A DNA stretch of 44,636 nucleotides. Origin: Clostridia bacterium (lineage in GTDB: Bacteria > Bacillota > Clostridia > Oscillospirales > CAG-272). Both the position numbers and the translations under genes were made by a program. Below the pieces are notes generated by a model that was not told the origin of the DNA, ran no database searches, and saw only the letters and a list, made by a program, of their open reading frames with translations. Within the stretch, counting starts at the first letter, position 1; each line of letters starts with the position of its first letter. Positions 1 to 40,370 of the stretch are shown in pieces. The stretch covers positions 1 to 44,636 of the forward strand of contig JAFUPM010000027.1 of assembly GCA_017481225.1 (NCBI GenBank), in the 5' to 3' direction.

Positions 1-250
1 ATACAACCTCCTCCTCTGCCTTCTCCCAGGAGAACTCGGATTTAAGCCTTCCCTCATACTGCGACTGCCTTCTTCTGACTGCCGCATCCCAGCTTCCCTC
101 GGTGTAGAAATTCTTCTTTATAAACCTTTTCAGCTCCTCGAACTGTCGGGGAGCATATTTTTTTATACCGTGGCCACACTCGTGAGTGAGGGCTGCCTCG
201 AGAGCATAGTTGCCGATATCTCTGCCCTCTCTTCCGGCTTCGATATTTAT
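1..250. repeat. Direct repeat, left copy (pairs with 40121-40370)
   Basis: The first 125 bases match 40121-40245 exactly. Differences then appear at 126, 191, 209, 211, 212, 245 and 247, and similarity ends at about 250. The repeat lies inside the giant polyvalent gene and encodes a metalloprotease-like HECGH motif at 170-184. The changes between copies are either synonymous (GCC/GCT, GGC/GGA) or conservative (R/K, N/D, N/H). This looks like divergence under coding constraint rather than sequencing error. Confidence 0.93.
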
Positions 251-2452
251 ATGTATGACGGGCACTCCGCCCTTGGTATCGTAATTTATATATGCGTTAG
301 TGTCTCGCAGGTCGGAATTCTCTTCCACGGTCTCAACGCGGAAAGCAAAGCCGTCAAGCACACGCGCAAGCAACTCCACCTTCTTCACGCCTTGCTTCTG
401 CGTGGGAGTGAGCTTTCGTCTCTTAACCCCCTCGCTCGTGATATCCGCGTGTCGGGAGCCGCTTTCGCTCCTCTTCTCCGCCTTACCGTCGGTATCGCTT
501 GCCGCGCTCTCCCTCTCGGCGCTTGCCTTTTTCTCTGCGGCTTTTTGTTTCGCCAGGTTTATTATTCCCTGCTCCGCGTCAACGGCTCTGTTGTAATCAA
601 CTCCTGCTCTGAAGGCTGCCGCAACAGCTCCGGAAGGCATAGACAGCACGCCGCGGCGGTCTCTCTCGGAGAGTGTATTCACCATATCCGTCAGTCTCTT
701 GCCGCGCGCCTCAAGTCCGAGAGAGTAGGCAGTAGTCCACCAGAGGCGGTATTCGTCAGCGCTTCCCTTGAATTGTTCAAGCCCCTCTTTGTATGCCTTA
801 AGAGTCTCGCCCTTGTATTTCTTCTCGGGGTCTGTCTGTGCCTTTGATGCCTTTATATCCTCCGTGAGTAGGATTTCCTTGAGCGCATCTCTTTGAGCCA
901 TCTTTCTCATAGCGCCGAGATTTTCTGCCTTCTGTTCAAACTCCGTCATATCGGCATAGTACCTCTGTACGCCCTCGTCGCCCTCGAGGTGCCTTACCTC
1001 GTCCTCGGTAAGGTATTCGCTCTCCCTCTCTGCCGCCAAATCAGCAACCTCGCGCGCAAGCTTTCCCGTGTATTTTGCCTGCTTACGCGAGCCTAATTTC
1101 GCGCTCTGCGCCTTTTCGAGAGTTCTACCGATATTCTCTACCCCCGAAGCCTTTGCCGCCTCGTAGAGTAAATTTTCCGTATGCTCAAGGTCTAGTATCT
1201 CCCTGCCCGACTTGACGTCAGCGGAGCCTTGTCTGATACTGCTCTTGGCAGCGCCTAAACCGCCAAAGCCGAGACCCATAAGCGCGCCGCTGGCTCCCGA
1301 CAGAGCAACGTCTCCGAAGCTATCAAGCACAGCCTTGCCTATTGCCTCGCTCTGAGACATACCCGACTTAACGTACTCTTCTACGGAGAGCATAAATTCC
1401 GAATTCGCGCCCGCGACAGCGATATCTGCTATCTTATTCAGCGCCTCGGCTGTTGCTTCCTCAGCTGCGTTAGAGCCGACGTTTTTCCAAAGGTAATTAA
1501 CTACCGACTGCTTGAAAAGCTTTGTATCAAACAGCGCGTCAAGTCCTGCTTTCTCGGTTACAGCTTCAATCGTGCCGGAGAGAACGCCGAGAAAGAGCGC
1601 TTTACCGTCGTCAAGACCTCTCTCTTTCGCTCCCATAACGGCGCTTGACATAGCCTCGCTGCCCATCATAGCTAAGGATACGGCTCCGCTAACCGCGCTG
1701 CCTGCTCCGCCGCCTAAGAGTGTGCCGATGCCTATGCTTATAGCGCTATCCGCCATAGACATACCCGTGTTATAGAGGAATTTACCAAAGCCCGACATAT
1801 CCTCAGATACCCCTGCTCTTTGTATCTGCGACGTCATTGTGTGGTATGGATTGTCCTCAAGCTCCTTACCTGCCACGTATCTCATAAGCTGCGTGGGAGC
1901 TTCTGTTAAGCCCGACGCTGCGGTATGGTAGAGCGACTCAAGCGATACGCCCGCCTTCTCCCAGAACCCGACAGCGTTTTCAGCTCTGTACTTTTGGTCC
2001 GCAAACGCCCTTCTCTTAAGCTCCTCGTCGTATTCCTTGTAGAAATCCTCGTATGCGTAGATACCTCTTCCGTCTTTGCTTATAACGAAATCAGCAAGAG
2101 CTCTCTCCTCGTCTGTCATATACGCGTACTGCTCGCCCGAGGTTCCTTGGAGCCACTCCTGAAATTTGCTCTTCGGCTTCCATTTTGCCGCATATTCCTT
2201 AAATTCCGGAGACTCCGCTACTTCCTTATACTTTTCCGGTATATACGTCTCGTAGGTCGGCGCACTTCTCGCCCTCTCAATGGCTTCGTTAATAACCTTC
2301 AGCTTATAGCGCTCCGCCTGTTTCGCATCATATTTCCGTATAGCCTCCTCCTTTGTGATTCCTGAGGAGACGGGCGAAGCAGCCTTAGCCACTCCGCCCC
2401 CTGTTGAATGTTTTTTATTATAGGCTGCAATCGCCTGTTCTTTCGTATACAT
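1..2452 (-). CDS. Giant phage polyvalent (ejection) protein, N-terminal part, runs off the left edge
   Basis: The reading frame is open from an ATG at 2452 (first residues MYTKEQAIAAYNKK) to position 1 and encodes 817 complete codons. The start follows the upstream gene's stop by nine bases. The N-terminal about 200 residues are charged and helical. Two Gly/Ala-rich hydrophobic stretches (about residues 231-270 and 379-400) could touch membrane during DNA ejection. An HECGH zinc-protease-like motif is at residue 757. If position 1 is joined to 40120 the split codon becomes TGT and the frame continues into the 34419-40082 piece, giving about 2,717 residues. Very large late-gene proteins of this kind in podoviruses are ejected internal virion proteins carrying several domains. 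That role is inferred from position and size. No transglycosylase or RNA polymerase motif was recognised. Confidence 0.8.
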   Translation of the reverse strand, partial: MYTKEQAIAAYNKKHSTGGGVAKAASPVSSGITKEEAIRKYDAKQAERYKLKVINEAIERARSAPTYETYIPEKYKEVAESPEFKEYAAKWKPKSKFQEWLQGTSGEQYAYMTDEERALADFVISKDGRGIYAYEDFYKEYDEELKRRAFADQKYRAENAVGFWEKAGVSLESLYHTAASGLTEAPTQLMRYVAGKELEDNPYHTMTSQIQRAGVSEDMSGFGKFLYNTGMSMADSAISIGIGTLLGGGAGSAVSGAVSLAMMGSEAMSSAVMGAKERGLDDGKALFLGVLSGTIEAVTEKAGLDALFDTKLFKQSVVNYLWKNVGSNAAEEATAEALNKIADIAVAGANSEFMLSVEEYVKSGMSQSEAIGKAVLDSFGDVALSGASGALMGLGFGGLGAAKSSIRQGSADVKSGREILDLEHTENLLYEAAKASGVENIGRTLEKAQSAKLGSRKQAKYTGKLAREVADLAAERESEYLTEDEVRHLEGDEGVQRYYADMTEFEQKAENLGAMRKMAQRDALKEILLTEDIKASKAQTDPEKKYKGETLKAYKEGLEQFKGSADEYRLWWTTAYSLGLEARGKRLTDMVNTLSERDRRGVLSMPSGAVAAAFRAGVDYNRAVDAEQGIINLAKQKAAEKKASAERESAASDTDGKAEKRSESGSRHADITSEGVKRRKLTPTQKQGVKKVELLARVLDGFAFRVETVEENSDLRDTNAYINYDTKGGVPVIHINIEAGREGRDIGNYALEAALTHECGHGIKKYAPRQFEELKRFIKKNFYTEGSWDAAVRRRQSQYEGRLKSEFSWEKAEEEVV

Positions 2453-2461
2453 AAGCGCCTC

Positions 2462-3831: not shown

Positions 3832-3832
3832 A

Positions 3833-6554: not shown

Positions 6555-7622
6555 TCAGGCAGATTCTTCCTCTGCCGTGATAACAGCCTCGGCATCGTCA
6601 ACGCCGTTGAAGCTGGAGGTGCAGCGGTAGTTTACGAGATACTTGGGAATAAGCACTCTCGTAACGGTTGTTGCCTTCCAGCCGACAGAGCCTCTCTGGT
6701 CGAGGGGGTCGGCAGTACCGGAGGAGCCAAGCTGCTTGACGATGGTGCGAAGACCGCCGCCCTCCAGCTTAACCGTACCGTAGGAGCCCTCACCGATAAG
6801 AGTGCCGTGGTAGATAGCCACGCCGTTTTCATTTTCGGTTATAAGGGCGTTGGTAGTCTCGTAGATACGTGCGCCTACCACGTCGCCAACGTAGCCGGAT
6901 GCGAGATGCTGGGGCTTCAGGAACTTATAAAGCTCCTTGTATTCCTCGTCGGCAGTAAGGTCCGTAGCCACGTCGGTATGAAGGATGAGAGGATATGCAC
7001 CGTTTATCTTAGGCGCATTGACTCTCTTGAGAATGTTTACGAGGCGTCTGATATCAGCCACGCTGATTTTGTGGTTTTCCACGGTAAGCTCAGCCTCGGC
7101 GTCAGCGCCGCCTGCAAGTGCATCGTTTACCTCGTCGTCGGTGACGAGAGTGTTACGGATAAGCTTATCGAGCACCGCGTGCGCCTGGGTGGACAGCACG
7201 TCGATTGCAGAGGTTACCATAGGGTCGATAGAGGTAGTAATAACCATATCGTTGAGAGGCACCCAGCCGCCGTAAGAATCGACCATAGCCGAGATAGTAT
7301 ACGTAGCGAGCTTCTGACCCTCGGGTGTCTGACCCTCCTCAAGCTTACGCGCCGCCACGTCGGTATCCAGCTCATGGAAGCCGCGGAACTCGATAGTCTT
7401 ACCTCTGCCCTTGGGGAGAGGTCTCTTTACCGCGAACTGCTCGTATACGAGATTGGGGCCTGCCTTCTTGATAAGGCGGTTATCGTAGTAGGTTTTGAAC
7501 TCCTCGGCAATGCCGGGGTCCGTAGAGGGCTGATTCTCATAGAGAACCGCCGTGTCGCTCTCTTCAAATACGAAGAGATTAAACGGATTGAATTTAAATC
7601 CGCATATTCCGATATTTTTCAT
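6555..7622 (-). CDS. Major capsid protein, N4-gp56 family
   Basis: This 355-residue protein has the N4-gp56 capsid signature. Near the N-terminus is TYYDNRLIKKAGPNLVYEQF, then KGRGKTIEFRGF, then an LEEGQTPEG loop, and LNDMVITTSIDPM at about residue 120. A long helix follows that ends in a TLD/VLDKLIRNTL-type segment. Family knowledge: these proteins form the HK97-fold shell of N4-like and many other short-tailed phages. The start ATG 7622 has AGGAGACAGAAAA upstream, a leader also used at 15184 and 17100. The scaffold gene lies directly upstream. Confidence 0.9.
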   Translation of the reverse strand: MKNIGICGFKFNPFNLFVFEESDTAVLYENQPSTDPGIAEEFKTYYDNRLIKKAGPNLVYEQFAVKRPLPKGRGKTIEFRGFHELDTDVAARKLEEGQTPEGQKLATYTISAMVDSYGGWVPLNDMVITTSIDPMVTSAIDVLSTQAHAVLDKLIRNTLVTDDEVNDALAGGADAEAELTVENHKISVADIRRLVNILKRVNAPKINGAYPLILHTDVATDLTADEEYKELYKFLKPQHLASGYVGDVVGARIYETTNALITENENGVAIYHGTLIGEGSYGTVKLEGGGLRTIVKQLGSSGTADPLDQRGSVGWKATTVTRVLIPKYLVNYRCTSSFNGVDDAEAVITAEEESA

Positions 7623-7674: not shown

Positions 7675-8748
7675 TTATCTGAAGGTACCCAACGTGACGG
7701 GCTCTCCGCGCTCCAGCATATCTTCTATTCTGGCATAGTCTGCATCCGTCATATTGCGGACGTCAATCTTGGGAGTGCTCTGGCCCTTTCTTGCCGCGCT
7801 TGCTCCCTCGCGGATACGTGCTTGGTTTTTCTGCACAGCCTTGGCGGCGTTCTGCTCGGCCTGTCTTTCGATAGCCGCAGTCTCTTTCGCCATAATCTCG
7901 TCAAGGTGCGCGTGTCGGTAAGCCTGCGTTACTGACATCTTGTCTCTCTGCAGGTACTTCATAAATTCGGGGTTCCTAAGCTCTGTCTTAATATCGAAGT
8001 CGGGATATAGCTTCACAGTCTCCTTTGCCTCGGCTGCCCACCTGGCAGCATCAGCGCGGAGCTCCTTATCCTTTTCCTCCGCATCAAGCTTTGCTCTGAG
8101 GTCCTCGAGCTCTCCCTTGGTGCGGGTCAGCTCGTCTGCCTGCTTCATTGATTCTCTGAGCGATTCTACACTCGTGCCCTTCTTGTAAGCCTCTGCCTCA
8201 AGAAGAGAATCGTCGGCGGCAATAGCGGCAAGTATACCCTCGGTATCGTCGGCGCTCTTACCGTACTTTGAAGCAAAGGCGCCAAGAGCTGCGCGGTATC
8301 TGTCAGCATCAGCCTTGTGCTTGTCTGCCTCGCTTTTTGCATCTCTTTGAGCTTTGAAGCGGTCAGCTATGGCGGCAGATATTTTTTTGCCATAGATCCC
8401 CTTATACTTATCCGACCTGATAAGCTCGTCGAACTCCTCCTCGGGAGTCCTCGTATCCGCGGTTGGCTCTGTCGGCTCTGCAGCAGCTGCACCCTCGTCA
8501 TCTGCTTCCGCGTTGCCGGCTTCTTCGGAGTGAGCGACGCTCCCCTCGGCTCTTACCGCCTCTGCAGCCTGTGCACTTGCCACACCGTCGGTAATACCGT
8601 ATTTCTGCTCCATTCGTGCCATGAACATATCCATGTCATCCGAATTCTCTGTACCAGACTCAGCGCCTTCGCCGTCTGCGCCTCCCTCAGCTCCTTCCGC
8701 AAAGAACTGAAGAGGTAGCCTGATAAGTCTTTTCTTCAAGATTTCCAT
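7675..8748 (-). CDS. Capsid scaffolding protein
   Basis: I place the start at ATG 8748 because AGAAAGGAGT precedes it and the product then begins with the typical short basic stretch and LPLQFFAEG motif of Bacillota phage scaffolds. The product is 357 residues: an acidic, Gly/Ala-rich region (about 20-110), then a long highly charged coiled coil (about 125-250), then a basic C-terminal segment that probably binds the capsid. Scaffolds assemble the procapsid and leave before DNA packaging. It directly precedes the capsid gene and is the first gene after a terminator/promoter element at 8833-8896. An ATG 36 bases further upstream is in frame but lies within the promoter-leader region. Confidence 0.8.
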   Translation of the reverse strand: MEILKKRLIRLPLQFFAEGAEGGADGEGAESGTENSDDMDMFMARMEQKYGITDGVASAQAAEAVRAEGSVAHSEEAGNAEADDEGAAAAEPTEPTADTRTPEEEFDELIRSDKYKGIYGKKISAAIADRFKAQRDAKSEADKHKADADRYRAALGAFASKYGKSADDTEGILAAIAADDSLLEAEAYKKGTSVESLRESMKQADELTRTKGELEDLRAKLDAEEKDKELRADAARWAAEAKETVKLYPDFDIKTELRNPEFMKYLQRDKMSVTQAYRHAHLDEIMAKETAAIERQAEQNAAKAVQKNQARIREGASAARKGQSTPKIDVRNMTDADYARIEDMLERGEPVTLGTFR

Positions 8749-8832
8749 AATACTCCTTTCTGCCCGTATGGCGGGCGACTCCACTTGAAGCTATCACAGT
8801 CCGAGAGCTCCCTCTCGGCTTCTGTCGGTTAT

Positions 8833-8867
8833 ATTCTACAACAAAAAAAGCCCGAAAAAAACCCCCC
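8833..8867 (-). promoter_or_regulatory. Putative late promoter with G6 box (copy 1 of 3)
   Basis: Leftward, a run of six Gs (8867-8862) is followed 23 bases later by TAGAAT (8838-8833). The same G6 then -10 arrangement is found at 13644-13679 and 34326-34360. There is no TTGACA-like -35 at normal spacing. Inference: a promoter for the head operon that may need a phage activator. Confidence 0.45.
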
Positions 8868-8868
8868 T

Positions 8869-8896
8869 AAAAAAGCCCGAAAAATCGGGCTTTTTA
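8869..8896. terminator. Bidirectional intrinsic terminator (copy 1 of 3)
   Basis: GCCCGA, four As, then TCGGGC, with A-run and T-run flanks on both sides. It separates the packaging unit (ending with the Prp-like gene) from the scaffold/capsid unit. Flanking bases match the copies at 13680 and 34361 while the stem sequence differs. Confidence 0.82.
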
Positions 8897-8897
8897 T

Positions 8898-9234
8898 CCC
8901 GACCTCGTCGGGTATGAAATCAGCCGTAGGCTGTATGGCATCACGGCTCTGCCGTGGATGGAATCCCGACCTCGTCGGGTATATACTCCTTGCGAGCTTG
9001 CCGCTGTCGCGTCGACGTTTCACTCCTCTTTTGCTCTCGCAAAATGCTCGCGGAGCAATCGGCGCGCGGCTCACTTGTGCCAGCACAGATTCACTCGCGC
9101 TTGATTATCATCCGTCACAAACGAGTATATCTCGTTTTGACGAGTATATCATCAACGGGCTCGCCCGTTGTATATCATCCAAGCTGTGCTTGGTATATCA
9201 TCAGTCGCACAGCGACTGTATATACCCCCTGCAT
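8898..9234. repeat. Array of short palindromes with constant linkers (array A)
   Basis: This non-coding 340-base stretch is built from perfect small hairpins: CCCGAC/GTCGGG twice, CAGCC/GGCTG, ACGGC/GCCGT, AACGGGC/GCCCGTT, CCAAGC/GCTTGG, AGTCGC/GCGACT, and a longer one around 9115-9143. They are separated by GTATATCATC, TATGGCATC or GTATATACTCC. A complex 133-bp unit at 8980-9112 recurs at 21073-21205 with three changes. The array ends at the stop codon of the Prp-like gene. I see no gene in it. Confidence 0.88.
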
Positions 9235-9235
9235 C

Positions 9236-9577
9236 CTACTCCGTCACAAGCGCCACGTGCTCGGGATATATCCTCGACAGCATTATAAAGCCGTTGACAA
9301 CCGTAGCGTAAACCGTTTTTAATACGCTGTAGCATTGGGGCTTAGGCTTGCAGAGTATTCTTGCCTTACCCTCAGCATCGTCTCCTATGTATATGGTCGC
9401 CTCCTCCTCAAGGCAGCCGCCCTCGTCCATAGTCATAACACTCATAGCGAGAGTATTGGCAAGAGTCGTAGCCGCCGCGCACATAACGTCGAGTCCCTCC
9501 ATATTTCCGAGGTCACCGTGTCCGAGCATATCCACGCGAAGCTCTCCCCCCGCATCAGTAAAATAAACCTGTATCAT
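9236..9577 (-). CDS. Prp-like cysteine protease (DUF464-type), putative prohead/processing protease
   Basis: The 113-residue sequence fits the Prp fold: an N-terminal beta strand, then LGHGDLG with the catalytic-type His, then VMCAAATTLANTL with the catalytic-type Cys in a helix. Bacterial Prp trims the N-terminus of ribosomal protein L27. Phage homologues between portal and scaffold have been proposed to act on virion proteins. The two key residues are present here. It starts at ATG 9577 after GAGGTGAAGAA, 39 bases after the portal stop. Host Prp lies next to rpmA, so this gene is unlikely to be a misplaced host copy. Confidence 0.7.
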   Translation of the reverse strand: MIQVYFTDAGGELRVDMLGHGDLGNMEGLDVMCAAATTLANTLAMSVMTMDEGGCLEEEATIYIGDDAEGKARILCKPKPQCYSVLKTVYATVVNGFIMLSRIYPEHVALVTE

Positions 9578-9583
9578 TTCTTC

Positions 9584-9616
9584 ACCTCTTCACTTTTCAC
9601 TCTTCACTTTTCACTC
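9584..9616. repeat. CTTCACTTTTCACT tandem repeat
   Basis: A short direct repeat of CTTCAC/TTTTCAC units fills the gap between the portal stop and the Prp-like gene and supplies its leader. The same repeat type occurs at 22969-22994, where it encodes the last codons of another gene. Confidence 0.7.
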
Positions 9617-11575
9617 CTACCTCGGCACCGTAGTCTCCGCGCTTCTCGCCCTCGCCTTTTTGGTAACGTGGGACTCCTTGGCTACGACACCCTCCTTGTT
9701 CTGCTCGGGCATCTCGGCATCAGCCGCGGGAGCTGTGCCGCCCTTTGCCGTCACGCCGCCTCTCTGCTGTAATCCAAGCAGGCTCTCCGCTGCCCTGAGT
9801 CTCTCCGAGAGTACCTTAACCATCTCGTACATCGTGCCGTTACGGTTAATAAGCTGCCTCATCTTGTCTTTGTCGCGAAAATCCATCATCTCAAGCACCG
9901 CAAGCGACGCATCCGCCCTCGCAGGCTCAAAGAAGCCGGCATTGTAGAACTGCAGCGCCAGCTCGTTCTGCGCCATAGCGGAATAAGCGGAAGCCTTCTG
10001 CGCCGATACTGCAACGTCGTATATAGGCTCAAACTCGATAGACTTCCCGTCGGTCCTCGTCACTCGGCGGTTAGCCATATCCTGCCGGGATATCTGAACG
10101 TACTCGTTCATTCCTCTCTCACCGGTTATTCTGAAGGTGCGAGGCAACGTGTAGAATTCACGTATAAGCTCGATAATGCACCGCGCAACCCGCACGAACA
10201 CCCTGTAGGAATCGCTTATGGCGGAGCGCGACGTCTTGCCTGCCTGCTCCTGGAGCGCCGCAATAGCGGAGGCGGCAGTCACACCGGAGGGCGCGTTACC
10301 CGTCGTAACGTCGTGATTACCCGAGGTCTCCTTCATATGGTTAACCATCTGGCTCATAACGTTCATATACGTTTCCGCGTTCGCCGACGACTGCACCGTG
10401 CGGAAGTTGCTATCGTCAAGAGAGCCGGAAAACTTCACTATTTCCACGTTAGGGTCGGCAACGTCCTTTTCGTTGACTCCTGCCGATTCGCCTATATAGG
10501 TCTTTGACCTTGAGGAGCCGAGGACGTTGCGAAGCATAGCGCGCTTCGTGCGGTCCATAAACTCCTGCTCCGACTTTTCCGTGTCAATAAGTCCAAAGCC
10601 TGCAGGCGAGCCCTTGATGCTGTAGTAAACGTCGAAATAGAAGGGATACTCTCCGTGGGCGTATATTCCGTGAGGATAAGCCTCAGGATCGTTCTCGGTA
10701 GCAGAAAGCACAACCCCCTCGGCAAACTTGCACAGATGCAGTACTCCCGACTTCTTGTAGTACCAATCCACCACCTCAACCTTGCCGGAGGCATCTACGT
10801 AGTCGTCGCTTGTGTACTCCTCAATCGTACCCGAGAGAGCGCCGCCGCGGAGTCTGTCAGCAAGCTCGGGATAAGCATCAAGCAACGCCGAGCGCGATAT
10901 CTTCGTAACGTAGAAAAGGTTTTCGGAGTCCTGAATATCGTCAACTCCACCCTCCCAGAAAAGATTAAGGCAGTCAACCTCTCTCATTCCGATATCGCCT
11001 ATGCCGCGGAGCTTATCGGGGTCCCAATATACGTGATATATTCCCGTGCCGTGCTTGACCTTCGCCTGCGTTACGTCGTGGTAAATATCTACGAAATCGT
11101 TTTGCTCCAGGATTACGGGCAGCACCTGGGAGAGCATTTTCGCGGCTCTCTCATCCTCAAGCTCTCGGGGCAGCACCGCAACCGTAGGTATAGCATCCAT
11201 ATAGTCGGCATGCTTACTCTCTATGTTGGAGAGCAGCCACGCGGACTTTGGCTCTATATCGTCCTCGCCCTCGCCTCTTGGCTTTTCACCCTCAATCTCA
11301 TTCCAATGGCGCATACGCCACCACTCCTCGGCGGCAACCACGTGAGCATCAAAATTCGCCTTCTGAGCCTTATATTCCGCAAGCACCCTCTCAGCATATT
11401 TAACCTGTTCGGTACCGACGGGCAGCCCCTCCTCCCTGTCTTTTGCCCGCCTTGCGAGGAGGGGCTCCTCCCTCTCGGCGCCAAGACCTTCAGCGGCATC
11501 GGGGCTCACCGTTTGCATATTCATAGCCCGGGCAAGCACAGGCCCAAGGCTTACTTCTTCTCTTCTTACGTTCAT
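9617..11575 (-). CDS. Portal protein (podovirus type)
   Basis: This 652-residue protein is encoded right after TerL with a TAATG stop/start overlap, which indicates translational coupling. It has portal features: an N-terminal helical part with a WRMRHWNEIEG segment, a central beta/alpha domain with KHGTGIYHVYWDP, a long helical stem rich in Ala/Gln (SGVTAASAIAALQEQAG) at about residues 425-440, and a charged C-terminal crown. The LPRELEDERAAKMLS region is common in P22-like portals of gut phages. The portal forms the dodecameric DNA channel at one capsid vertex and binds the terminase motor. The last about 40 residues are low-complexity. Confidence 0.87.
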   Translation of the reverse strand: MNVRREEVSLGPVLARAMNMQTVSPDAAEGLGAEREEPLLARRAKDREEGLPVGTEQVKYAERVLAEYKAQKANFDAHVVAAEEWWRMRHWNEIEGEKPRGEGEDDIEPKSAWLLSNIESKHADYMDAIPTVAVLPRELEDERAAKMLSQVLPVILEQNDFVDIYHDVTQAKVKHGTGIYHVYWDPDKLRGIGDIGMREVDCLNLFWEGGVDDIQDSENLFYVTKISRSALLDAYPELADRLRGGALSGTIEEYTSDDYVDASGKVEVVDWYYKKSGVLHLCKFAEGVVLSATENDPEAYPHGIYAHGEYPFYFDVYYSIKGSPAGFGLIDTEKSEQEFMDRTKRAMLRNVLGSSRSKTYIGESAGVNEKDVADPNVEIVKFSGSLDDSNFRTVQSSANAETYMNVMSQMVNHMKETSGNHDVTTGNAPSGVTAASAIAALQEQAGKTSRSAISDSYRVFVRVARCIIELIREFYTLPRTFRITGERGMNEYVQISRQDMANRRVTRTDGKSIEFEPIYDVAVSAQKASAYSAMAQNELALQFYNAGFFEPARADASLAVLEMMDFRDKDKMRQLINRNGTMYEMVKVLSERLRAAESLLGLQQRGGVTAKGGTAPAADAEMPEQNKEGVVAKESHVTKKARARSAETTVPR

Positions 11576-13008: not shown

Positions 13009-13026
13009 TCGTTACCTCTTCGTTCC

Positions 13027-13708: not shown

Positions 13709-13709
13709 T

Positions 13710-27612: not shown

Positions 27613-27684
27613 CCGAAAAAGTCAATAAAAATGTTCTATTTTACAGAACATAGAACAGAAAAAGGAAAGGAAAAAATAAGCACA

Positions 27685-28842: not shown

Positions 28843-28846
28843 AACA

Positions 28847-29015: not shown

Positions 29016-29067
29016 GTTTTTTTGAAATCGAAGGAGGTAAATAAGTCACCAAAACTATGTGATGAAT

Positions 29068-29136
29068 GACTTGAACCCTTTACAAATCTAGCTTTTTCGC
29101 GCCTTTTGCGGTTTTTGACAACTTTTTGACACCATT
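29068..29136 (-). repeat. attP region inverted repeat, right arm
   Basis: This is the inverse of 28759-28827 over 69 bases. Beyond the shared TTCAAGTC the tRNA acceptor part is absent on this side. Its outer end overlaps the stop codon of the membrane gene at 29135. Confidence 0.82.
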
Positions 29137-31191: not shown

Positions 31192-31593
31192 TTATTCCGT
31201 CTGCCACCCGTCGGTGAGCGTGGTAACCTTTTCGTACAGCTCCGCCTGGCGCTCAGCAATAAACATAAGAGCCTCATACACCGTCGTCAGCTCCTCGCTG
31301 ACACCCTTATAACGTCTGAGAAATGCGCCGTCCTTGTGCGTAAATCCGACGTAAAGCTCCTCGCCGTCGCTGTTTTTGAGAGATAGGCGAAAATCTCCGC
31401 CGAGAGACAGTATCTCATCAGAGAACACCGCAGCTCCGTCCTTGACTGTACCGACGGCATACTCACCGCCGGGAGCGCGGAGCATAACCTCCGTCCCTTC
31501 AGGTACTCCCCATATCTCTACGCGCAAAAGTCCGTTTTCGCTTACTCCCAGCTCGCGGATAGCTATTGCTTTTCCTATAACCGATATTTTCAT
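31192..31593 (-). CDS. Small late protein, unknown function
   Basis: The start is ATG 31593 (MKISVIGKAIAI), overlapping the stop of the upstream small gene as TAATG. The 133-residue product has a beta-rich N-terminal part (LLRVEIWGVPEGTEVMLR) and a C-terminal helix (VYEALMFIAERQAELYEKV). Located between the fibre cassettes and lysis genes, it may be a tail accessory. Not recognised. Confidence 0.5.
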   Translation of the reverse strand: MKISVIGKAIAIRELGVSENGLLRVEIWGVPEGTEVMLRAPGGEYAVGTVKDGAAVFSDEILSLGGDFRLSLKNSDGEELYVGFTHKDGAFLRRYKGVSEELTTVYEALMFIAERQAELYEKVTTLTDGWQTE

Positions 31594-31805
31594 TACTTCA
31601 GCCACTCCGGCTTCTTGGGAATTACAAGAGTCTCGGTGGCATTGAGCCAAGCCTCGTACCAAGCCTTAAGCTCTGCGGTCTGTTCTGCCGTGAGCGTATC
31701 GTACCATGGCTTGCCGCGATTGATGACCGGGAAGCATTCCTTTGCTCTGCGGTCACGGATGTGAATAATTCTTCCTATGGGACGAAACTTTTTTGTGTTT
31801 TCCAT
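31593..31805 (-). CDS. Small fibre-partner protein, copy 2
   Basis: This 70-residue protein is almost identical to the product of 32481-32684 from residue about 17 on (IRDRRAKECFPVIN, YDTLTAEQTAELKAWYEAW, LVIPKKPEWLK). The RDRR start, LT.EQ..EL..W helix and Pro/Trp end resemble short tail-fibre assembly chaperones. Each copy lies just downstream of a leucine-rich fibre gene. Function is inferred from that pairing. AAGGAGG precedes ATG 31805. Confidence 0.55.
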   Translation of the reverse strand: MENTKKFRPIGRIIHIRDRRAKECFPVINRGKPWYDTLTAEQTAELKAWYEAWLNATETLVIPKKPEWLK

Positions 31806-31819
31806 TATTTATTACCTCC

Positions 31820-32467
31820 TTATGCTGCGCTTTTCATCATCAGTTCAGCATCATGGCCAGCCTCAAGCGCAAGTGCATATTGCTCACGGTACTGCTCTAT
31901 AATGTTGGAATGTGTTAGATTACCAGGTATGAATGTATGATTTATCCATTCTTCATCGTTTTCGTCAATTTCGGCCTCAACATTTCCTATTAGGTGAACA
32001 TAGAGATGCTCTTCGACAAAGCAATAGACCACAGTATCCGAACCGCCGAAGCTCAACTCATTATATGTCTTACCTGTAGCCGCCGAAATTGTTTCGGCAA
32101 AATCGTCATCAAGGTTTGCCCGACAGTAAAGCTCAGTGAGGTTGGCGAGGGTCTCAATGTTACCGACTCCAACGAAAATAATGTACTTACCCAGAGTGAG
32201 CTTTGTAATCTCGGTATCGTCTTTAAATGCGTTCTCAGCAACCTCAAGCACAGGCTTACCCTCGTAGGTATCGGGAATAATTATCTCGCTGCCCTTTACC
32301 GTTCCTCTGCCCGTTACAATGTAATAGTTGCCGTCTGCAGAAAGCTCATAGGCGAGGCTGGGTACTCCCGCCGTATCCGAAGGTCCAACGTAGCCCACGT
32401 AGTCGCGGAGCTTCTTGTCTGTCATATCGTAGGTATTGGAGCCTATTCTTAATTTTGTTTTCCTCAT
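31820..32467 (-). CDS. BspA-type leucine-rich tail fibre/receptor-binding protein, copy 2
   Basis: The first about 95 residues of this 215-residue protein closely match the next fibre gene (LRIGSNTYDMTD, LAYELSADG, YYIVTGRGTVKGSEI, PDTYEGKPV). They lead into LRR_5-type units (AFKDDTEITKLTLGKYI, NLTELYC). The C-terminal half is acidic and unique. BspA-type repeats in phage tails bind surface ligands. Duplicated N-terminal part plus divergent tip fits alternative receptor binding. AAAGGAG precedes the ATG. Confidence 0.68.
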   Translation of the reverse strand: MRKTKLRIGSNTYDMTDKKLRDYVGYVGPSDTAGVPSLAYELSADGNYYIVTGRGTVKGSEIIIPDTYEGKPVLEVAENAFKDDTEITKLTLGKYIIFVGVGNIETLANLTELYCRANLDDDFAETISAATGKTYNELSFGGSDTVVYCFVEEHLYVHLIGNVEAEIDENDEEWINHTFIPGNLTHSNIIEQYREQYALALEAGHDAELMMKSAA

Positions 32468-32480
32468 TTTGAATTCTCCT

Positions 32481-32684
32481 TTACTTCAGCCACTCGGGAG
32501 CTTTGGGAATTACAAGGGTCTCGGTGGCATTGAGCCAAGCCTCGTACCAAGCCTTAAGCTCTGCCGTCTGTTCTGCCGTGAGCGTATCGTACCACGGCTT
32601 GCCGCGGTTGATGACCGGGAAACATTCCTTCGCTCTGCGGTCACGGATGTGGTTTATTCTTGAAATTTTTTTAGAATTATTCAT
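32481..32684 (-). CDS. Small fibre-partner protein, copy 1
   Basis: This 67-residue protein is a near duplicate of the product of 31593-31805. Only the first about 15 residues and one position near the end differ. It lies between the two fibre genes. The close DNA identity of the two copies indicates recent duplication or gene conversion. Confidence 0.55.
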   Translation of the reverse strand: MNNSKKISRINHIRDRRAKECFPVINRGKPWYDTLTAEQTAELKAWYEAWLNATETLVIPKAPEWLK

Positions 32685-32702
32685 CTTTATTTCCTCCGTT
32701 AA

Positions 32703-33314
32703 TTATGCATATGAAGCAATTTCAAGAGCAATATCGTCTTCGTCAATGGTGTGGACGTTACCGTCTTCTTCGTAACCACATTCAAGGTCTCTATTGATAC
32801 AATCATTGAACCTAGTGGCGCAATTTTTGGAGCCTTCACCATATCCCCACACTGGGTACATTCCGTCTCGAACGTTACCGTGTTGCTCGCAATCAATCCA
32901 CCAACCGTCATAATCATAAAGCTCTTCTTCCTCTCCACGATAAGTTCCCTTTCTTACGGTTTCCTCGCTTGTGTTAAAATAAAGCTCCGCAAGGTTAGGG
33001 CACACAATAGCACCGCCGCCTATATAGGTTACATTTGCGCCTACGGTGATTTTTGTTATCTCTTCGTCACCGTAAAAGGCTTTTACTGCCACCTCTCTAA
33101 CAGGCTTACCCTCGTAGGTATCGGGAATAATTATCTCGCTGCCCTTTACCGTTCCTCTGCCGGTAACGATGTAGTATGTGCCGTCTGCCGAAAGCTCATA
33201 GGCGAGGCTGGGAGCACCCGCCGCATCCGAAGACTCAACGTAGCCCACGTGGTTGCGCGCGCCTTCGTCGGCAATATTATATTCTTTGCTTCCTATTCTT
33301 AATTTAGATTTCAT
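32703..33314 (-). CDS. BspA-type leucine-rich tail fibre/receptor-binding protein, copy 1
   Basis: The start is ATG 33314 (MKSKLRIGSKEYN) with AGAAAGGAAA upstream; more upstream codons overlap the BppU gene. The 203-residue product has the shared N-terminal module and LRR_5 units (AFYGDEEITKITVGANVTYI). Its unique C-terminus is rich in Asp, Glu, Tyr and Cys, including a GGWWI-like DYDGWWIDCEQHG segment that could be the contact tip. Confidence 0.68.
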   Translation of the reverse strand: MKSKLRIGSKEYNIADEGARNHVGYVESSDAAGAPSLAYELSADGTYYIVTGRGTVKGSEIIIPDTYEGKPVREVAVKAFYGDEEITKITVGANVTYIGGGAIVCPNLAELYFNTSEETVRKGTYRGEEEELYDYDGWWIDCEQHGNVRDGMYPVWGYGEGSKNCATRFNDCINRDLECGYEEDGNVHTIDEDDIALEIASYA

Positions 33315-33337: not shown

Positions 33338-34297
33338 TTACAAGTAAACGCTCCAATTGAGGGCAAAATCCTCCCCCAAGGTATGTGCTTCGTCGCCGAG
33401 TATGCACGTCTCCCCCGAATGTCTTGTATATATCTCCGCGCAGTTTTCGGTCGCGCCGTTAAGGCACACAATATAGTATTCTTCAGAACCCCCGTGGGCT
33501 TCACACAGTCCGTAATAACCCCACTCACCGCCGTCTGCCACTTCCTTCTCTGCCTCAGTCGGCGCACGTTTGAATACGAGGCTTAAAAGATTATCTACCA
33601 TAAACGCGCCGCCGCCAACGTAGTCGACGTTACTGCCTACAAAAATCTGCTTAACGTTAGGGTTCCCGTAGAACGCCTTTGCCGCCACCTCTTTAACCGG
33701 CAAGCCGAGATAATAGTCGGGGATGCTTATCTCGTTACCCTCTACCGTGCCGGGACCCGTTACAATGTAATAAGTACCGTCGGCGGAAGGCTCGAATTGA
33801 AGTCCGACGCCAAGGTTTCTGACAAGCTCGGCAGCATCCGCCACCTTCTTAGCGTTCTCCTCCGCCGAGAGTATCAGCCCCCACGAGGGATTTGCACGAA
33901 GCGCCGCCTCAAGCTCCTGCTCCGTGACGTCGCCCTCTGTATCCGAAATCTGAAACACAAAGGTCGGTGCGCCTATCTTCGCGCCTCGCTCGTCGTATAG
34001 ATGCAGATTACAGGCAACGCACCCGGCAACGGAAAGCGCATCGGGCGTCGGGATATATGACACCGTATTATCCACGTGGCTCACGGTGCAGTTATCCAAA
34101 ACACCCTTACCGTCAGCGCCGTTATGCACGGATATCGCCGCACGCACGCCGTAAGGCAGCTTTACCGCTTCGGGCCCGTCGCGTATGCTGAAGATGACCT
34201 CAAAAGCACCTCGGTCAGTCTTGATAAACGGGATCGTCGCCTGATAGCCCTGCCGCTGTAAATCAAGCATCACCCGTCTTGTAATTTTTAATGCCAA
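33338..34297 (-). CDS. BppU-like baseplate protein with leucine-rich C-terminal domain
   Basis: The start is TTG 34297 (LALKITRRVMLDL), chosen for the AAAGGAGG seven bases upstream. The 319-residue product has a BppU N-terminal domain (about 1-135), as in lactococcal-type baseplate upper proteins, a helical linker (about 140-175), then a leucine-rich module (SADGTYYIVTGPGTVEGNEI, AFYGNPNVKQIFVGSNV) related to the two fibres below it. It is probably the base on which the fibres stand. A promoter/terminator element lies directly upstream. Confidence 0.75.
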   Translation of the reverse strand: MALKITRRVMLDLQRQGYQATIPFIKTDRGAFEVIFSIRDGPEAVKLPYGVRAAISVHNGADGKGVLDNCTVSHVDNTVSYIPTPDALSVAGCVACNLHLYDERGAKIGAPTFVFQISDTEGDVTEQELEAALRANPSWGLILSAEENAKKVADAAELVRNLGVGLQFEPSADGTYYIVTGPGTVEGNEISIPDYYLGLPVKEVAAKAFYGNPNVKQIFVGSNVDYVGGGAFMVDNLLSLVFKRAPTEAEKEVADGGEWGYYGLCEAHGGSEEYYIVCLNGATENCAEIYTRHSGETCILGDEAHTLGEDFALNWSVYL

Positions 34298-34325
34298 AAG
34301 TTTTTCCTCCTTTCTTTTTGTCACT

Positions 34326-34360
34326 ATTATAAATAAAAAAGGGGAGTATTTAAACCCCCC
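34326..34360 (-). promoter_or_regulatory. Putative late promoter with G6 box (copy 3 of 3)
   Basis: Leftward, G6 (34360-34355), TTTAAAT, a short C-rich segment and TATAAT (34331-34326), with 23 bases between the last G and the -10. It lies 29 bases upstream of the BppU-like start and matches copies 1 and 2 in order and spacing. Confidence 0.5.
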
Positions 34361-34390
34361 TAAAAATCCCAAAAAATTGGGATTTTTTAT
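34361..34390. terminator. Bidirectional intrinsic terminator (copy 3 of 3)
   Basis: ATCCCA pairs with TGGGAT and has A/T runs on both sides. It ends the giant-gene operon just before the baseplate/fibre operon. A lone CCCGAC/GTCGGG hairpin follows at 34391-34405, as in the other two copies. Confidence 0.82.
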
Positions 34391-34418
34391 CCCGACCTTG
34401 TCGGGTATATGCTCCCTC

Positions 34419-37400
34419 TCATTTGAGGAACTGGTCTATTTCCTCTGCAAGCTCCGGGAAATGCCTCTTGATAAAACCGTATATAGCGTTCCACACGTTA
34501 CGGACAGGAAGACCAACCACCTGGGAGAAAGCGAAAGCAAGCTTTCTCATAGAGCCTACGACATCACCGACGTCACCCTTACCGTCAAGGAGATTCTCTA
34601 TCGTCTTCCAGACCGACTTTACCGCACCAACAAGCGTATTCACGGTATCATAAGCGAAGTGCGATACGTCGTATCCGTCGCCTAAAAGATCGACGATATC
34701 TCTGATAAGCGGCAAGCCGCCGATAAGATTAGACCCGAAGTCGGAAAGCAGCTCACCGACGATTTCTTCATCATCGTCGAGCTTCCCTCTCAAATAGTTA
34801 AACAACAGCGCAACCACCGCCATATACACCGAGTTGCCTACAAGCACAGCGGTACTCTTCGTTACCTTTTTGCCCGCCTTCTTTATCTGCGCCTCAAGCT
34901 TCGCCCGCTTTGCCGGGTCACTTGTACGCACGAGCCGCTTCTTCGCGTAGATCACCTCTCCGACAGCATCAAGGAACCTGCCCTGTGTTTTCATAGCGTC
35001 GGATGAGAACATAGTTAAGCCGCGGACTATTTCGCTTGACGATCTCATGGCCGCCGATCTCTCAGTAGAGATAGAGTTCTGCTGTGTATCCAGGATAACC
35101 CCAGTCAGTATCTCCCCTGCTCGCACAAGGTTTTCCTCCGTGCCGACAGCTGCGCCCTCCTTCGCCGCCTGTATCTTACAAGCCTCAAAGAGTGAGCACA
35201 CCACCGCGCGGTCAACGGCGCCAATGGGCGACATCAGCACGTCCTGCCCCTTTTCTAACAGCTCGCCTGCTTTATTTTTCCTGACTACACTGCCGTCCTT
35301 TTTCTCCACAACGCCCTGGGAAAGATATGCGTGGTTCTCCTCGTTTCTTATCTTGGCAAGCTTACAGTACTCGTCTACCACCTCGCCGAGCTCTCGGAGC
35401 CTCGCCCTGCCCTTTTGCGTGAAAATATCTAAGCCGCCCTTTGCTTTGCCGACAACGGCGCCGATACCCTTCATAAGTGCGCCGGGAGACAGAACGTGGA
35501 GTGCCGCGCCGTAGGACGAAAGCTGTGAGAGCAGCACCTTGCCGTTCAAGGCGAGGCCTGCCACCACGGTGCCCTTGCGGAGCTGACCTATGGCGCCGTT
35601 AAGTATATTGTCCTCTGTAGGTCTTATTCCCTGCGCATCGGCTATGAGCTTTTTGAAATAATCGTGGCTTCCGCTCTCGATTATTTCCTCCTTGGCGTTC
35701 CTTCTCTCACCCCACACCTTGTTAGCGCTTTTCATGATGTTAACAGGCGCGTTCTTATTGCCCGACACGTCGGTATTGTATATGCGGTCAAAGAAGTCCA
35801 CAAACTCCTGCATCTCGGCGTAGGTGCACATTGCCCGGGCGTGCCTCTCGTACACCGTCATAAAGCTGATAAGCCCCAGCGCCTGTCTTGAGCCCTTGAC
35901 TCTGTCCTTGTTGGCTGATATATTGCTGACGCTCTCAAGCTCGTCCTTGTAGGCTACAGCCTCTGCCATCTTCGCAATTCCTGCGCGCTTTATGGGGAAG
36001 TAATAGCCCTTGCCAACGTTAGAGAAGCCGTGCCGTCTCATATCGGTACGCCGCTTCATATCGCGGAATATTCTATTGAAGCCCTCCTCCTCGATAGCTA
36101 TAATCTCTCGGTCAAGCTCGTCAAGGCTGCGCTCGATCTTCTCTATCTCGCGGCTGACGATGCCTTCAAGCTCCTCGGCGGAAAGTGTCTCGCTGTCAAA
36201 GCCCTCGGTAGCAAGCTCGCGAGCCTTCGCCTCTGCCTCCTCCTTACCGATACCGTTCTCCGCAAGCTCTCTTGCAACAAGCGAGCGTTTGAATTCTATC
36301 GCCGCGCCCTTGGCTACGCTGTAAGCCTCCACGCGCTTGCCCTTAAAGTCAACATACTCGAAACCGTTATAGACAAATCCCGCGTGAGAGTCCTTCTGCT
36401 TCAGAGTCATATACAGAGCTATTGCCTGTGCTTTTGGTACCTTGTGGCCGTAGATCTCAACGCTTTGAGTCTGAAGATCTCTTGCATAATTGGGGTGCGC
36501 TTCGATAAACTCGTTGTACGCCGCCAAACTCTCCGAGATTGCAACGTCGCGCTTAACGACTGCATCCTCGAGCATTCTGAATATACGGGTGAAAAATCCG
36601 TTCTCGGTATATCTGTCGTACCTTCTCACAACCGCAAGCGGATCGCTGAAGTTATCGAAATACCACTTGAATATATGGGAGTCGACAATGCTGTCAAGCC
36701 TGCCGCCGTCGCTTTCCCTCGACTCGCGCAGATCGTCCATAAAGCTTTCGGCAAGCGGAACTATATCCACCCACTTCCCCTGATAGAATACCTTATTGTA
36801 GTTTTCTACAAAGTGCTTGAAATAAGTGAGGACATCATAGAGGTTCCACGCCTCCTCGGCGGTAAGTTTGCCTTTTTTTACGTTGCCCTGCTCGTCTACT
36901 ACAAGCTCGTCAAGCAGCTCACGTATGCCGGGGAGATAGTATCCCGGATTCTGCTCGTCCTTGTATTCAAGGAACTCGTTGCCCGTATGGTACCAGTCGC
37001 GTAGCTCTGCAATCTTGGCTCTTACCTTGTTCGGAGAGAAGGTCTGCCGATACTCGAACCTCGCAAGCTCACGGAGCAGGCCCGACACTCTGTCGCCTCT
37101 GACCTCCGTCGCGTTCTCAAAGGTACCGAGCTTCGCGTCTCTGATGCTTCGCGCAACTCTGTCTAGCGCCAGGGTAGCCTTAAAGTAGTCTACCATACCG
37201 TTATACTTTTCCTTGAATCTCTCCTTGCGGGCTTCGTATATTTCTTCCATATTTTCAGCGTGCTTACGCGCATTATCGAGCTGCCTTTTGGCTTTCCTAC
37301 CTTCTTTCAGCTCTTTAACGTATGGAGATTCCAGGCCAAGCTCACGGTATGCCGAAAGCAATTCATCAACAATTTTTGAATTCAGCTCCGTTATTTCCCG

Positions 37401-40082
37401 GCTCGAAGTATCATCAATAGCTGATATGTATCTTTCTTCTTCGATAGCCTCTGTGTAAATTGCATCAAGCTCGATCAATGCATCTGCAGTATCCATCGTT
37501 CTCAAACGCATAAATTCAGGAACGTATCTTATTATTTCCTCGACAAATCGGTCAGAGTCTATTCCGCTTTCTCCTTTATGCTTGTTACTCCATCTGCCAA
37601 AATATGACCTGGCTTTTTCTTTTCCGAGCTTATAGGTAATTGCATTATATACACCCTTCTCGAACGTAAGGTGCGAAATGTACGGCTTGATTTTTTCGAG
37701 TATTTCCCTTTGTCTTTCGTATTCGGGATTATCCGCTACAGCCTCATCCAGTATCGCATCACGAATTTTATCCTTCATCATTACGATAAAATCCGTTCGT
37801 TCCAGCTCACCGTCTGCGGCATTTAATCCTATCCATAGCTCGTCCACCAGTTGAGCCCTTGTTTTTTCTCTGATTGTCTTGGTCTCCGGAATGTTTCTCA
37901 ATGCCTCTCTGGCATCAGCTTTTGAGTAGAATCTTGAATGCGTAAATTTAGCTCTGTTTTTTTCGTACTCTCCGCGGCTCATAGTCACAGTCCCGGCTGT
38001 ATTCCTGCGGTTGCCGATATTCTTCTCGTATCTCTCCACCATATCACGGAATGGCTTTGCCGCGGAAATCTCAAGGAGCTTTCTGTCCTTACGGGTTACG
38101 TCGTCGGTAATACGGTCTATCTGCTCTCTGAGCCTCTCGCGCTCACCGGCGAAGGTGCGCTTGTCCCCAATCTCGTCATATCGACGGAGCAGCCTCGCCC
38201 TCTCGGAGAGCTTATCGTCAATATCCTCGATCTCAGCTCTGTACTGCCTCATTGCCTCGCGCTCCTCGTCGGTACTAGCCAGCCCGTAGAACGCCTCAGC
38301 CAGAGCCTCTCTGTCGAGCTTGTCCGCGAGGGAAAGGCTCTTCTCGGAAGAATTTTTCAAAATTTTTTCAGCAAAACTATTGCTTTTTTCCGCTGAATCG
38401 GGTATAATAGAACTAGATACAAAGCTTGTGGCATTAGCAAGAGACCCGTTGGGCACTCCCTTTTGCGATTCTCGTTTTGTATCTTTTTTGTTTTCGGAAA
38501 ATTTAAATATGGATCCATCCGGCATCAGTATACGATGTACTTTATAGTGATTGTTTCTCATATTTACAACCACTGCCATATTGCCTCGTATTCCATTCAA
38601 TTCTACCGGTGCAGCAAAAGTCACTGTGTGCTTACCACGCAGTTTATGATTGCCGTGTTCACCTATTTGAATTCCTCTTTTCAAAACTCTGTAAATCGCA
38701 ATAATTGATACTTTCTCCTCATCAGTATCGAGATAATTCATAGCACCGCGAATGTCACTTTCCTCAAAATAAATCTTTCCGAAATTTTGTCTATCAGCCT
38801 GAAATCCGTATTTTTTTAGTTCATCTATTGCATAATTCCCAGCTTCGTATTTGTCTGAACCTATATTTGTCGGCACAGTAGAATAAAAAACAATCGGCAT
38901 TTTATTCAAGACATCCTGTGAATGTAGTAATTGCTCTCTTATTCCAGCGGTTTCGGGGTCGTATTCGTCTTTTGCAAAGAATTCAACCTCATCAGCACGC
39001 ACAAACACAACATCCTCCCGATCTATATCAGGGCGGGTGTTTTTTCTCTCTTCTTCCGTGAGGCTTATTCTGTCCGCAGTATCCCGCGCCTCAATCTCTC
39101 CGGCAGTAGCTCTATACTGCTCCATTGCCGTTCTGTTCTCTGTATTATTGAACATCTCAACGTTACTTCCGCCTGCGAAGCCTTCTATATCTTGTATTGC
39201 GTGCTGAATTTCGTGCATTAAGGTTTTCTTTAACTGTTTTATATCTGGTCTCATTCTTTGAGGTAAAGATATTTCCTTAAAACCGGGGTGATATGAGGCA
39301 GTCGCCGCATCTCCGCTATGGAAATAAACCTCAACATCTGCTAACTGCGGATATGCCTCGAAAAGCGCAGGGTGCCAAATTAAATCTCCGAGCTTGTTTG
39401 GAGTAATTGATTTGCCTTCAAGCATTTTATCGAGTTCGTCAAGTTCTCTCGATTCTGCTTCTGTTGCGGTTACAGTGAAATACACCTTTTCTACAAGTTC
39501 TGCATAGCGGCGCACATTAGCATCTCTGGAGTATTTTCCGTTAAGCGCGAGCTCAAAATCATTATCATTTATTTCAAACCTCCACTTGCCGTCATACCCT
39601 TTAAACCAGCCTGTATTTTTTCGTACAGTTTCAGAACCAACTCCGTCGGCTATCATTCGCTTGGCAATATCAAGCCTTGTAATATTGGCATTTTTTGCTT
39701 TTTCACCGGCAAAAGAATAATCCCTCTTCTCCTCGCTAACGCTCATATTATCCCCGTTTGTGTTCGTTACAGCCGGATTTTCGCCTGTTTTTGCGCTGTT
39801 AGAACCATCTGCGGTTACAACGTCTGCTTTCGCTTTCTCCGCAGCCTTGACGTCGGAGACAGCCTTAGCGGCGGTGTTTGCCTCGCGCAGAGCCGTAACG
39901 AATTTGTTTTCAAGCGCTCTCTGCAGCTTCGCGGCACCCTGCTCGACTATTCTCTGCTCCGGGGTCCTCGATGAGTATTCACCGACGCGGCGGATTCGGG
40001 AAACAAGCTTCTCGAAAAAGTCCGTCACAGCCTTCCACACACGGGCAAATATATTCCTATGCTCCGCGGCGAGCTTGTTCAT
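34419..40082 (-). CDS. Giant phage polyvalent (ejection) protein, C-terminal part
   Basis: From the in-frame ATG 40082 the frame encodes 1,887 residues, but it stays open upstream through the repeat at 40121-40370 with no start codon. The true start is therefore ATG 2452 in a circular genome (2,717 residues in all). Visible parts, numbered from 40082: a second zinc-protease-like HEIQH at residue 290; at about 395-540 an LPD3-like module ending in KVHRILMPDGSIF; long charged helical regions (about 600-1330); and a C-terminal LPD38-like part with SPIGAVDRAV, LDTQQNSISTERSAAM and one or two hydrophobic helices. Such polyvalent proteins are ejected with the DNA in related short-tailed phages. Confidence 0.8.
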   Translation of the reverse strand: MNKLAAEHRNIFARVWKAVTDFFEKLVSRIRRVGEYSSRTPEQRIVEQGAAKLQRALENKFVTALREANTAAKAVSDVKAAEKAKADVVTADGSNSAKTGENPAVTNTNGDNMSVSEEKRDYSFAGEKAKNANITRLDIAKRMIADGVGSETVRKNTGWFKGYDGKWRFEINDNDFELALNGKYSRDANVRRYAELVEKVYFTVTATEAESRELDELDKMLEGKSITPNKLGDLIWHPALFEAYPQLADVEVYFHSGDAATASYHPGFKEISLPQRMRPDIKQLKKTLMHEIQHAIQDIEGFAGGSNVEMFNNTENRTAMEQYRATAGEIEARDTADRISLTEEERKNTRPDIDREDVVFVRADEVEFFAKDEYDPETAGIREQLLHSQDVLNKMPIVFYSTVPTNIGSDKYEAGNYAIDELKKYGFQADRQNFGKIYFEESDIRGAMNYLDTDEEKVSIIAIYRVLKRGIQIGEHGNHKLRGKHTVTFAAPVELNGIRGNMAVVVNMRNNHYKVHRILMPDGSIFKFSENKKDTKRESQKGVPNGSLANATSFVSSSIIPDSAEKSNSFAEKILKNSSEKSLSLADKLDREALAEAFYGLASTDEEREAMRQYRAEIEDIDDKLSERARLLRRYDEIGDKRTFAGERERLREQIDRITDDVTRKDRKLLEISAAKPFRDMVERYEKNIGNRRNTAGTVTMSRGEYEKNRAKFTHSRFYSKADAREALRNIPETKTIREKTRAQLVDELWIGLNAADGELERTDFIVMMKDKIRDAILDEAVADNPEYERQREILEKIKPYISHLTFEKGVYNAITYKLGKEKARSYFGRWSNKHKGESGIDSDRFVEEIIRYVPEFMRLRTMDTADALIELDAIYTEAIEEERYISAIDDTSSREITELNSKIVDELLSAYRELGLESPYVKELKEGRKAKRQLDNARKHAENMEEIYEARKERFKEKYNGMVDYFKATLALDRVARSIRDAKLGTFENATEVRGDRVSGLLRELARFEYRQTFSPNKVRAKIAELRDWYHTGNEFLEYKDEQNPGYYLPGIRELLDELVVDEQGNVKKGKLTAEEAWNLYDVLTYFKHFVENYNKVFYQGKWVDIVPLAESFMDDLRESRESDGGRLDSIVDSHIFKWYFDNFSDPLAVVRRYDRYTENGFFTRIFRMLEDAVVKRDVAISESLAAYNEFIEAHPNYARDLQTQSVEIYGHKVPKAQAIALYMTLKQKDSHAGFVYNGFEYVDFKGKRVEAYSVAKGAAIEFKRSLVARELAENGIGKEEAEAKARELATEGFDSETLSAEELEGIVSREIEKIERSLDELDREIIAIEEEGFNRIFRDMKRRTDMRRHGFSNVGKGYYFPIKRAGIAKMAEAVAYKDELESVSNISANKDRVKGSRQALGLISFMTVYERHARAMCTYAEMQEFVDFFDRIYNTDVSGNKNAPVNIMKSANKVWGERRNAKEEIIESGSHDYFKKLIADAQGIRPTEDNILNGAIGQLRKGTVVAGLALNGKVLLSQLSSYGAALHVLSPGALMKGIGAVVGKAKGGLDIFTQKGRARLRELGEVVDEYCKLAKIRNEENHAYLSQGVVEKKDGSVVRKNKAGELLEKGQDVLMSPIGAVDRAVVCSLFEACKIQAAKEGAAVGTEENLVRAGEILTGVILDTQQNSISTERSAAMRSSSEIVRGLTMFSSDAMKTQGRFLDAVGEVIYAKKRLVRTSDPAKRAKLEAQIKKAGKKVTKSTAVLVGNSVYMAVVALLFNYLRGKLDDDEEIVGELLSDFGSNLIGGLPLIRDIVDLLGDGYDVSHFAYDTVNTLVGAVKSVWKTIENLLDGKGDVGDVVGSMRKLAFAFSQVVGLPVRNVWNAIYGFIKRHFPELAEEIDQFLK

Positions 40083-40120
40083 TACCCTTTGATTTGACAG
40101 CAGCTTACCGAGGGAGTTAC

Positions 40121-40370
40121 ATACAACCTCCTCCTCTGCCTTCTCCCAGGAGAACTCGGATTTAAGCCTTCCCTCATACTGCGACTGCCTTCTTCTGACT
40201 GCCGCATCCCAGCTTCCCTCGGTGTAGAAATTCTTCTTTATAAACTTTTTCAGCTCCTCGAACTGTCGGGGAGCATATTTTTTTATACCGTGGCCACACT
40301 CGTGAGTGAGAGCTGCCTCGAGAGCATAATCTCCGATATCTCTGCCCTCTCTTCCGGCTTCGATGTGTAT
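40121..40370. repeat. Direct repeat, right copy, at the phage-host junction
   Basis: Identical to 1-125 for the first 125 bases, with seven differences over 250 in all. It still encodes the HECGH motif (40290-40304) in frame with the giant gene. Beyond about 40370 similarity to the phage stops and the sequence is chromosomal, with the metK terminator only 27 bases away. Confidence 0.93.

Follow-up and report, generated by a model that had tools for sequence, protein, structure and literature searches.

Gene content of the window

The window, that is, the whole stretch of DNA analysed here (44,636 bases), is one entire contig (C93) of a draft bin (G000; 1.73 Mb in 99 contigs, 63.5% complete), and its position 1 is a contig end. 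Positions 1-40120 carry the structural genes of a tailed phage (terminase large subunit (TerL), portal and capsid), a tyrosine integrase, a replication initiation protein, an internal virion protein and two repressor-like genes, together with a giant gene found as two parts at the two ends of this interval (Table 1). From about 40.5 kb onwards the genes are those of the host (metK and phosphofructokinase); host DNA is seen to the right of the phage, and on the left the contig begins at position 1.

Table 1. Features of the window, with positions, strand and basis of assignment
Feature	Position	Strand	Basis or remark
Repeat, left copy	1-251	.	starts at contig base 1
Identical stretch, equal to 40121-40245	1-125	.	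likely join place
Giant gene, N-terminal 817 residues	2-2452	-	HECGH in repeated segment, motif by eye
N4-gp56-type major capsid protein	6555-7622	-	gene match
P22-like portal protein	9617-11575	-	gene match
Terminase large subunit (TerL)	11575-13008	-	gene match
Replication initiation protein	13860-14717		phrog_3584; REP_ORF2-G2P match just under cut-off
Tyrosine integrase	27598-28704	+	gene match
Uncut attP core	28817-28844	+	28 bases, equal to G070 att repeat (tRNA-Trp 3' end) with one base different
Phage gene across attP from integrase	29135-30136	-	homologue is end gene of sister prophage
Giant gene, C-terminal 1900 residues and stop	34419-40121	-	LPD23 domain
Repeat, right copy	40121-40371	.	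7 differences; passes into metK-side host DNA
metK terminator hairpin	40396-40431	-	MFE -19.2, z -4.8
metK, host	40510-41691	-	gene match

As the first-pass annotation of this DNA had stated, the minus-strand frame of the giant gene runs off position 1 and is taken up again at 40120, ending with the stop codon at 34419, which gives 817 + 1900 = 2717 residues. The codon at the joint is TGT with its first base taken from either position 1 or position 40121, and the frame is broken by the contig ends alone. The gene encodes an LPD23 domain (E = 2e-21) and two HExxH motifs, HECGH and HEIQH, recognised by eye; none of the metallopeptidase models of Pfam and NCBIfam matched it.

A search of IMG/VR with TerL found 88 relatives, of which 80 were kept. 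The IMG/VR record L176 (IMGVR_UViG_3300029705_002006) is a phage about 96% identical to window positions 7705-13021, and its TerL gene (L176:1363-3768) holds an insert of about 0.97 kb that resembles a frame-broken intein (assigned by eye): its N part continues the TerL frame, a second frame contains an HNH-like ORF (by eye), and the C part and the end of TerL are in a third frame; the TerL gene of the window, unlike that of L176, has no interruption. Repeated elements internal to the phage are found at 8840-9235, 13026-13119, 13651-13801, 20974-21205, 22833-22966 and 34332-34408, with weaker copies in five host contigs (C23, C38, C55, C68 and C97), and duplicated segments (83-88%) occupy 31570-33257, by a tail-fibre-like gene (33338-34372).

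The direct repeat and its passage into the metK region

Self-comparison of the window bore out the earlier claim that repeats with seven differences flank the phage: the two copies are 97% identical, and 7 of their 251 positions differ (126, 191, 209, 211, 212, 245 and 247 of the left copy). Counted from contig base 1, the first 125 bp are identical, and the 7 differences fall among the following 126 bp. Such a confinement to the last 126 of 251 bp has P = 0.007 under an even spread, and the probability of meeting an exact run of 125 bp at one given place is about 0.0008 at 5.6% divergence. A chance repeat was ruled out, the next best ungapped offset in the window having 38% identity to the left copy. 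The differences, which change five codons (N/H, G/G, N/D, A/A and R/K), had been called codon-aware, a weak description given that 4 of the 7 are at third positions (p ~ 0.17, not significant).

The right copy keeps the frame through position 40370 and then gives way to host DNA, and the metK terminator hairpin follows 24 bases beyond its end, in agreement with the first-pass annotation (a simple hairpin pattern scan missed this hairpin because its loop is beyond the length that the scan allows). With positions 40000-40500 as the query against the bin, the matches were the query's own place and positions 1-251 only. Since the sequence at 40371 is present just once in the bin, the diverged 126-bp piece is, within the bin, probably truly linked to metK; the link between this piece and the phage left of 40120 depends on the shared exact stretch. 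No left border of the metK-side piece was found in the bin with 40000-40500 and the C-terminal part of the giant gene as queries, and no second copy of the phage with these two queries and the portal gene.

The attachment site and the prophage of a sister species

The attP core lies uncut between the integrase gene and the gene at 29135-30136. With up to 2 mismatches allowed, the bin contains this core a single time, and no empty attB, that is, no tRNA-Trp-like core besides the phage's own, was found there at the same threshold. The phage has a tyrosine integrase adjoining an att core that is equal to a tRNA 3' end except for one base. Because this core is uncut between the two genes, the phage is not integrated at its own att site, and the recombined core that would mark an integrase-made prophage at metK, as attL and attR at the phage-host borders, is absent there. 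The att site had been placed about 11 kb from the junction; the distance is 11.3 kb (28.84 kb vs. 40.12 kb), which counts against the phage being a lysogen at this place. The adjacency of 40120 and 1 is deduced from the frame, and that of the integrase and the 29135-30136 gene is seen in the sequence itself; taken together, they correspond to a closed circle or a head-to-tail concatemer. A 73-bp inverted repeat (28759-28831 and 29064-29136, 95% complementary) surrounds attP, and one of its arms overlaps the att core.

A related prophage is present in a sister species (G070, matched to JAFQRL010000039.1, Clostridia bacterium RGIG2083, from goat colon). It spans from the integrase gene (C37:6434-7489) to the homologue of the 29135-30136 gene (C37:42166-43080), in the circular order of the window. 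Att repeats of 29 bp lie just beyond the prophage ends, at C37:6325 and 43240, the second of them overlapping a tRNA-Trp gene. The giant gene of this prophage is a single frame of 2755 codons (C37:30388-38652) in mid-prophage; two stops that were counted in a match extending to 38682 are due to the match overrunning the frame end at 38652. The two phages have in common the order of integrase, terminase, portal, capsid and giant gene as well as the tRNA-Trp att core, with 78% identity in TerL and 76% in the integrase, whereas they differ in that the G070 phage is integrated in tRNA-Trp with its giant gene uncut and the phage of the window has a circular arrangement. The uncut attP and the sister prophage, which lies in tRNA-Trp with its giant gene whole, argue that the phage of the window is circular and non-integrated, and that its giant gene is cut by the contig ends.

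Contig ends in the bin

We examined 102 contig ends of the bin (the first 400 bases of 60 contigs, the last 400 of 40, and both ends of the window), of which 92 were usable and 10, being masked, were left out. Within these end stretches, four exact matches of at least 20 bp from a contig end were found besides that of the window. The start of C48 has 119 bp identical to C47:162-280, after which 7 of 120 positions differ, within a repeat of 535 bp and 95% identity; C30 and C57 have a 59-bp end-to-end terminal overlap; the other two are an exact match of 42 bp (C22 near C28) and a 56-bp repeat within C12. The default k list of MEGAHIT includes 59 and 119 and includes none of 42, 56 and 125, and the C47/C48 and C30/C57 matches look like k-mer overlaps. 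What the C47/C48 case illustrates is the breaking of a contig at an exact run rather than a false joining of two.

Two sister records stem from the RGIG study (PMC8199421), and by extension the bin of the window presumably went through the same pipeline. According to the methods described there, contigs from single-sample MEGAHIT and IDBA-UD (maxk 124) assemblies were merged by Minimus2 with OVERLAP = 100 and MINID = 100, and co-assemblies made with MEGAHIT alone were also binned (PMC8199421). Copies that are first exact and then diverged are what the joining of contigs via a shared exact stretch would give.

The metK neighbourhood in relatives

The locus was made for 19 of the 54 relatives with a metK match (flank to ~1.5 kb), and in 17 of these 19 recD2 lies 3' of metK. 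No match to recD2 was found in the bin of the window, in a search that ran without a control and in a bin that is 63.5% complete. In one relative (G001, matched to JAGBTM010000008.1), a decayed piece of the giant gene (L043:7960-9556, 57% protein identity) lies about 0.46 kb upstream of metK and begins about 11 codons from the breakpoint of the window. This piece is on the opposite side of metK from the right copy of the window, and by eye its border has no sequence in common with the 40371 junction; the right copy, which is 97% identical to the window's phage, and the G001 piece are unlikely to come from one insertion. In another relative (G030), an orphan polyvalent-type frame of 771 residues (L044:4388-6703) lies 4.5 kb from metK, flanked by genes that by eye resemble ftsZ and mreB; its start, again judged by eye, is upstream of the peptidase, so that the breakpoint is not shared.

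Origin of the junction

We consider it likely that a 40-kb circular temperate phage has been fused, in assembly, with a metK contig on which a short, diverged part of the giant gene lies. Positions 1-40120 would be one full turn of a free circular temperate phage (excised, replicating or in particles), a short segment of the giant gene, slightly diverged, would lie near metK in the chromosome, and the two would have at least 125 bp exactly in common; by way of this shared stretch the assembly would have gone over from phage sequence to the metK contig, leaving the phage opened inside its giant gene with host DNA next to it. By one possible route, a circular contig would have been opened at the shared stretch and then merged through it with the metK contig, which would produce just this window. 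The att sites are in circular arrangement, the sister gene is whole, the 125-bp run starts at base 1 and the right copy abuts metK; the link between the metK-side piece and the phage left of 40120 we infer to be false. The apparent split of the giant gene is most likely an assembly effect, arising from where the contig was opened, and the piece adjoining metK is probably a small phage remnant. Several points stand against this reading: the pipeline is deduced from sister records of a study that also binned co-assemblies made with MEGAHIT alone; 125 is no default k of MEGAHIT; the C47/C48 case is not a false join; a false join predicts that the metK-side piece has a left continuation of its own and none is in the bin, although the bin is 63.5% complete and recD2, the usual neighbour, was not found in it either; and a 125-bp run is improbable (the chance of ~0.0008 given above) unless the joining step selects such runs.

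Of the alternatives that the first-pass annotation had offered, the circle of 40,120 bp is supported, with the frame linking 40120 to 1 and the integrase adjoining the 29135-30136 gene across the uncut attP, and so is the join artefact with a phage remnant beside metK, for which the uncut attP, the whole giant gene of the sister, the exact run from base 1 and the similar contig start elsewhere in the bin all speak. The remaining alternative, a lysogen in which the late gene is broken and would be rebuilt solely by excision between the repeats, is compatible with the letters alone and found no support of its own. A lysogen may also be made by homologous recombination, through a single crossover between the circular phage and the chromosomal giant-gene piece near metK inside the shared stretch; hybrid repeats would then flank the phage, attP would stay unused, and release would proceed via recombination between the repeats. 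Such a crossover would yield identical letters, including the sharp shift from identity to 5.6% difference, the right border fits, and related giant-gene pieces do occur in chromosomes, that of G001 being close to metK. However, the phage has its own integrase and an attP that is uncut, tRNA-Trp is where the sister prophage integrated, the junction with the host on the left was not seen in the bin, and the circle junction is explained equally well by a free phage, and we regard the crossover as unlikely. It seems quite improbable that a second, closely related variant forms a lysogen ending at 40371 by metK via a site within the giant gene, with the contig mixing both forms. A variant at about 96% nucleotide identity does exist (L176, over window 7705-13021 only), the right copy has kept its frame and the G001 piece starts near the same breakpoint, but the 40371 junction and the border of that piece are without common sequence (by eye), the attP on the integrase side fits tRNA-Trp, and the giant gene would be cut in the lysogen.

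In two species a giant-gene piece lies less than 0.5 kb from metK, and the starts of the two pieces are no more than about 11 codons apart in the gene. That a targeted process repeatedly brings the peptidase segment of the giant gene to the metK area, and that the species of the window has a lysogen using it, strikes us as very improbable; if true, it would imply that the gene contains a second recombination site or that a peptidase cassette has been retained. A linear phage genome with true terminal redundancy would account for a full-length phage with a direct repeat at both ends, but the right copy continues into chromosomal metK, and a packaged genome should have direct terminal repeats without differences; virion redundancy, to which we give practically no weight, is ruled out by the 7 differences in 251 positions.

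As such, the split gene is of small importance. It serves as a warning that, in a bin, a short exact match may link an entire circular phage to host DNA, and that a gene seemingly broken in a 'lysogen' may be intact in nature. What is gained is tRNA-Trp as the likely att site and, for a phage group with sister host records from ruminant-gut Clostridia, a complete circular genome.

Comparison of the giant gene with known systems

Among 12 IMG/VR records examined for the giant gene, 3 matched at all, and in one of them (G110, 41.9 kb) the related gene is a single frame of 2455 codons. Scans of IMG/VR with both gene parts, with an alignment of the repeat segment and with a 21-bp repeat pattern found no relative, and a scan of genome contigs with the repeat segment gave 2 matches. 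Relatives of the repeat segment occur in 5 of the 69 genomes of the genus that were searched, the window's own included.

Judged by its sequence, the product of the giant gene resembles the polyvalent proteins of phages and conjugative elements (PMC5512222), with which it has in common a giant, multidomain build, HExxH motifs (by eye) and LPD23, a domain that does not appear in the available part of the text of that paper; most of its domain make-up is without an assignment. In the best 20 of 42 records, proteins of F116-type Pseudomonas and related phages are 31-34% identical to it over about 250-280 residues of the C part, and these matches span just 13-15% of the query; among the same 20, the Baskent_P6 protein is annotated as a PLxRFG domain protein, and some others as 'structural protein'. 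The phage of the window is a new representative of an ordinary, already known kind, and no new mechanism is required.
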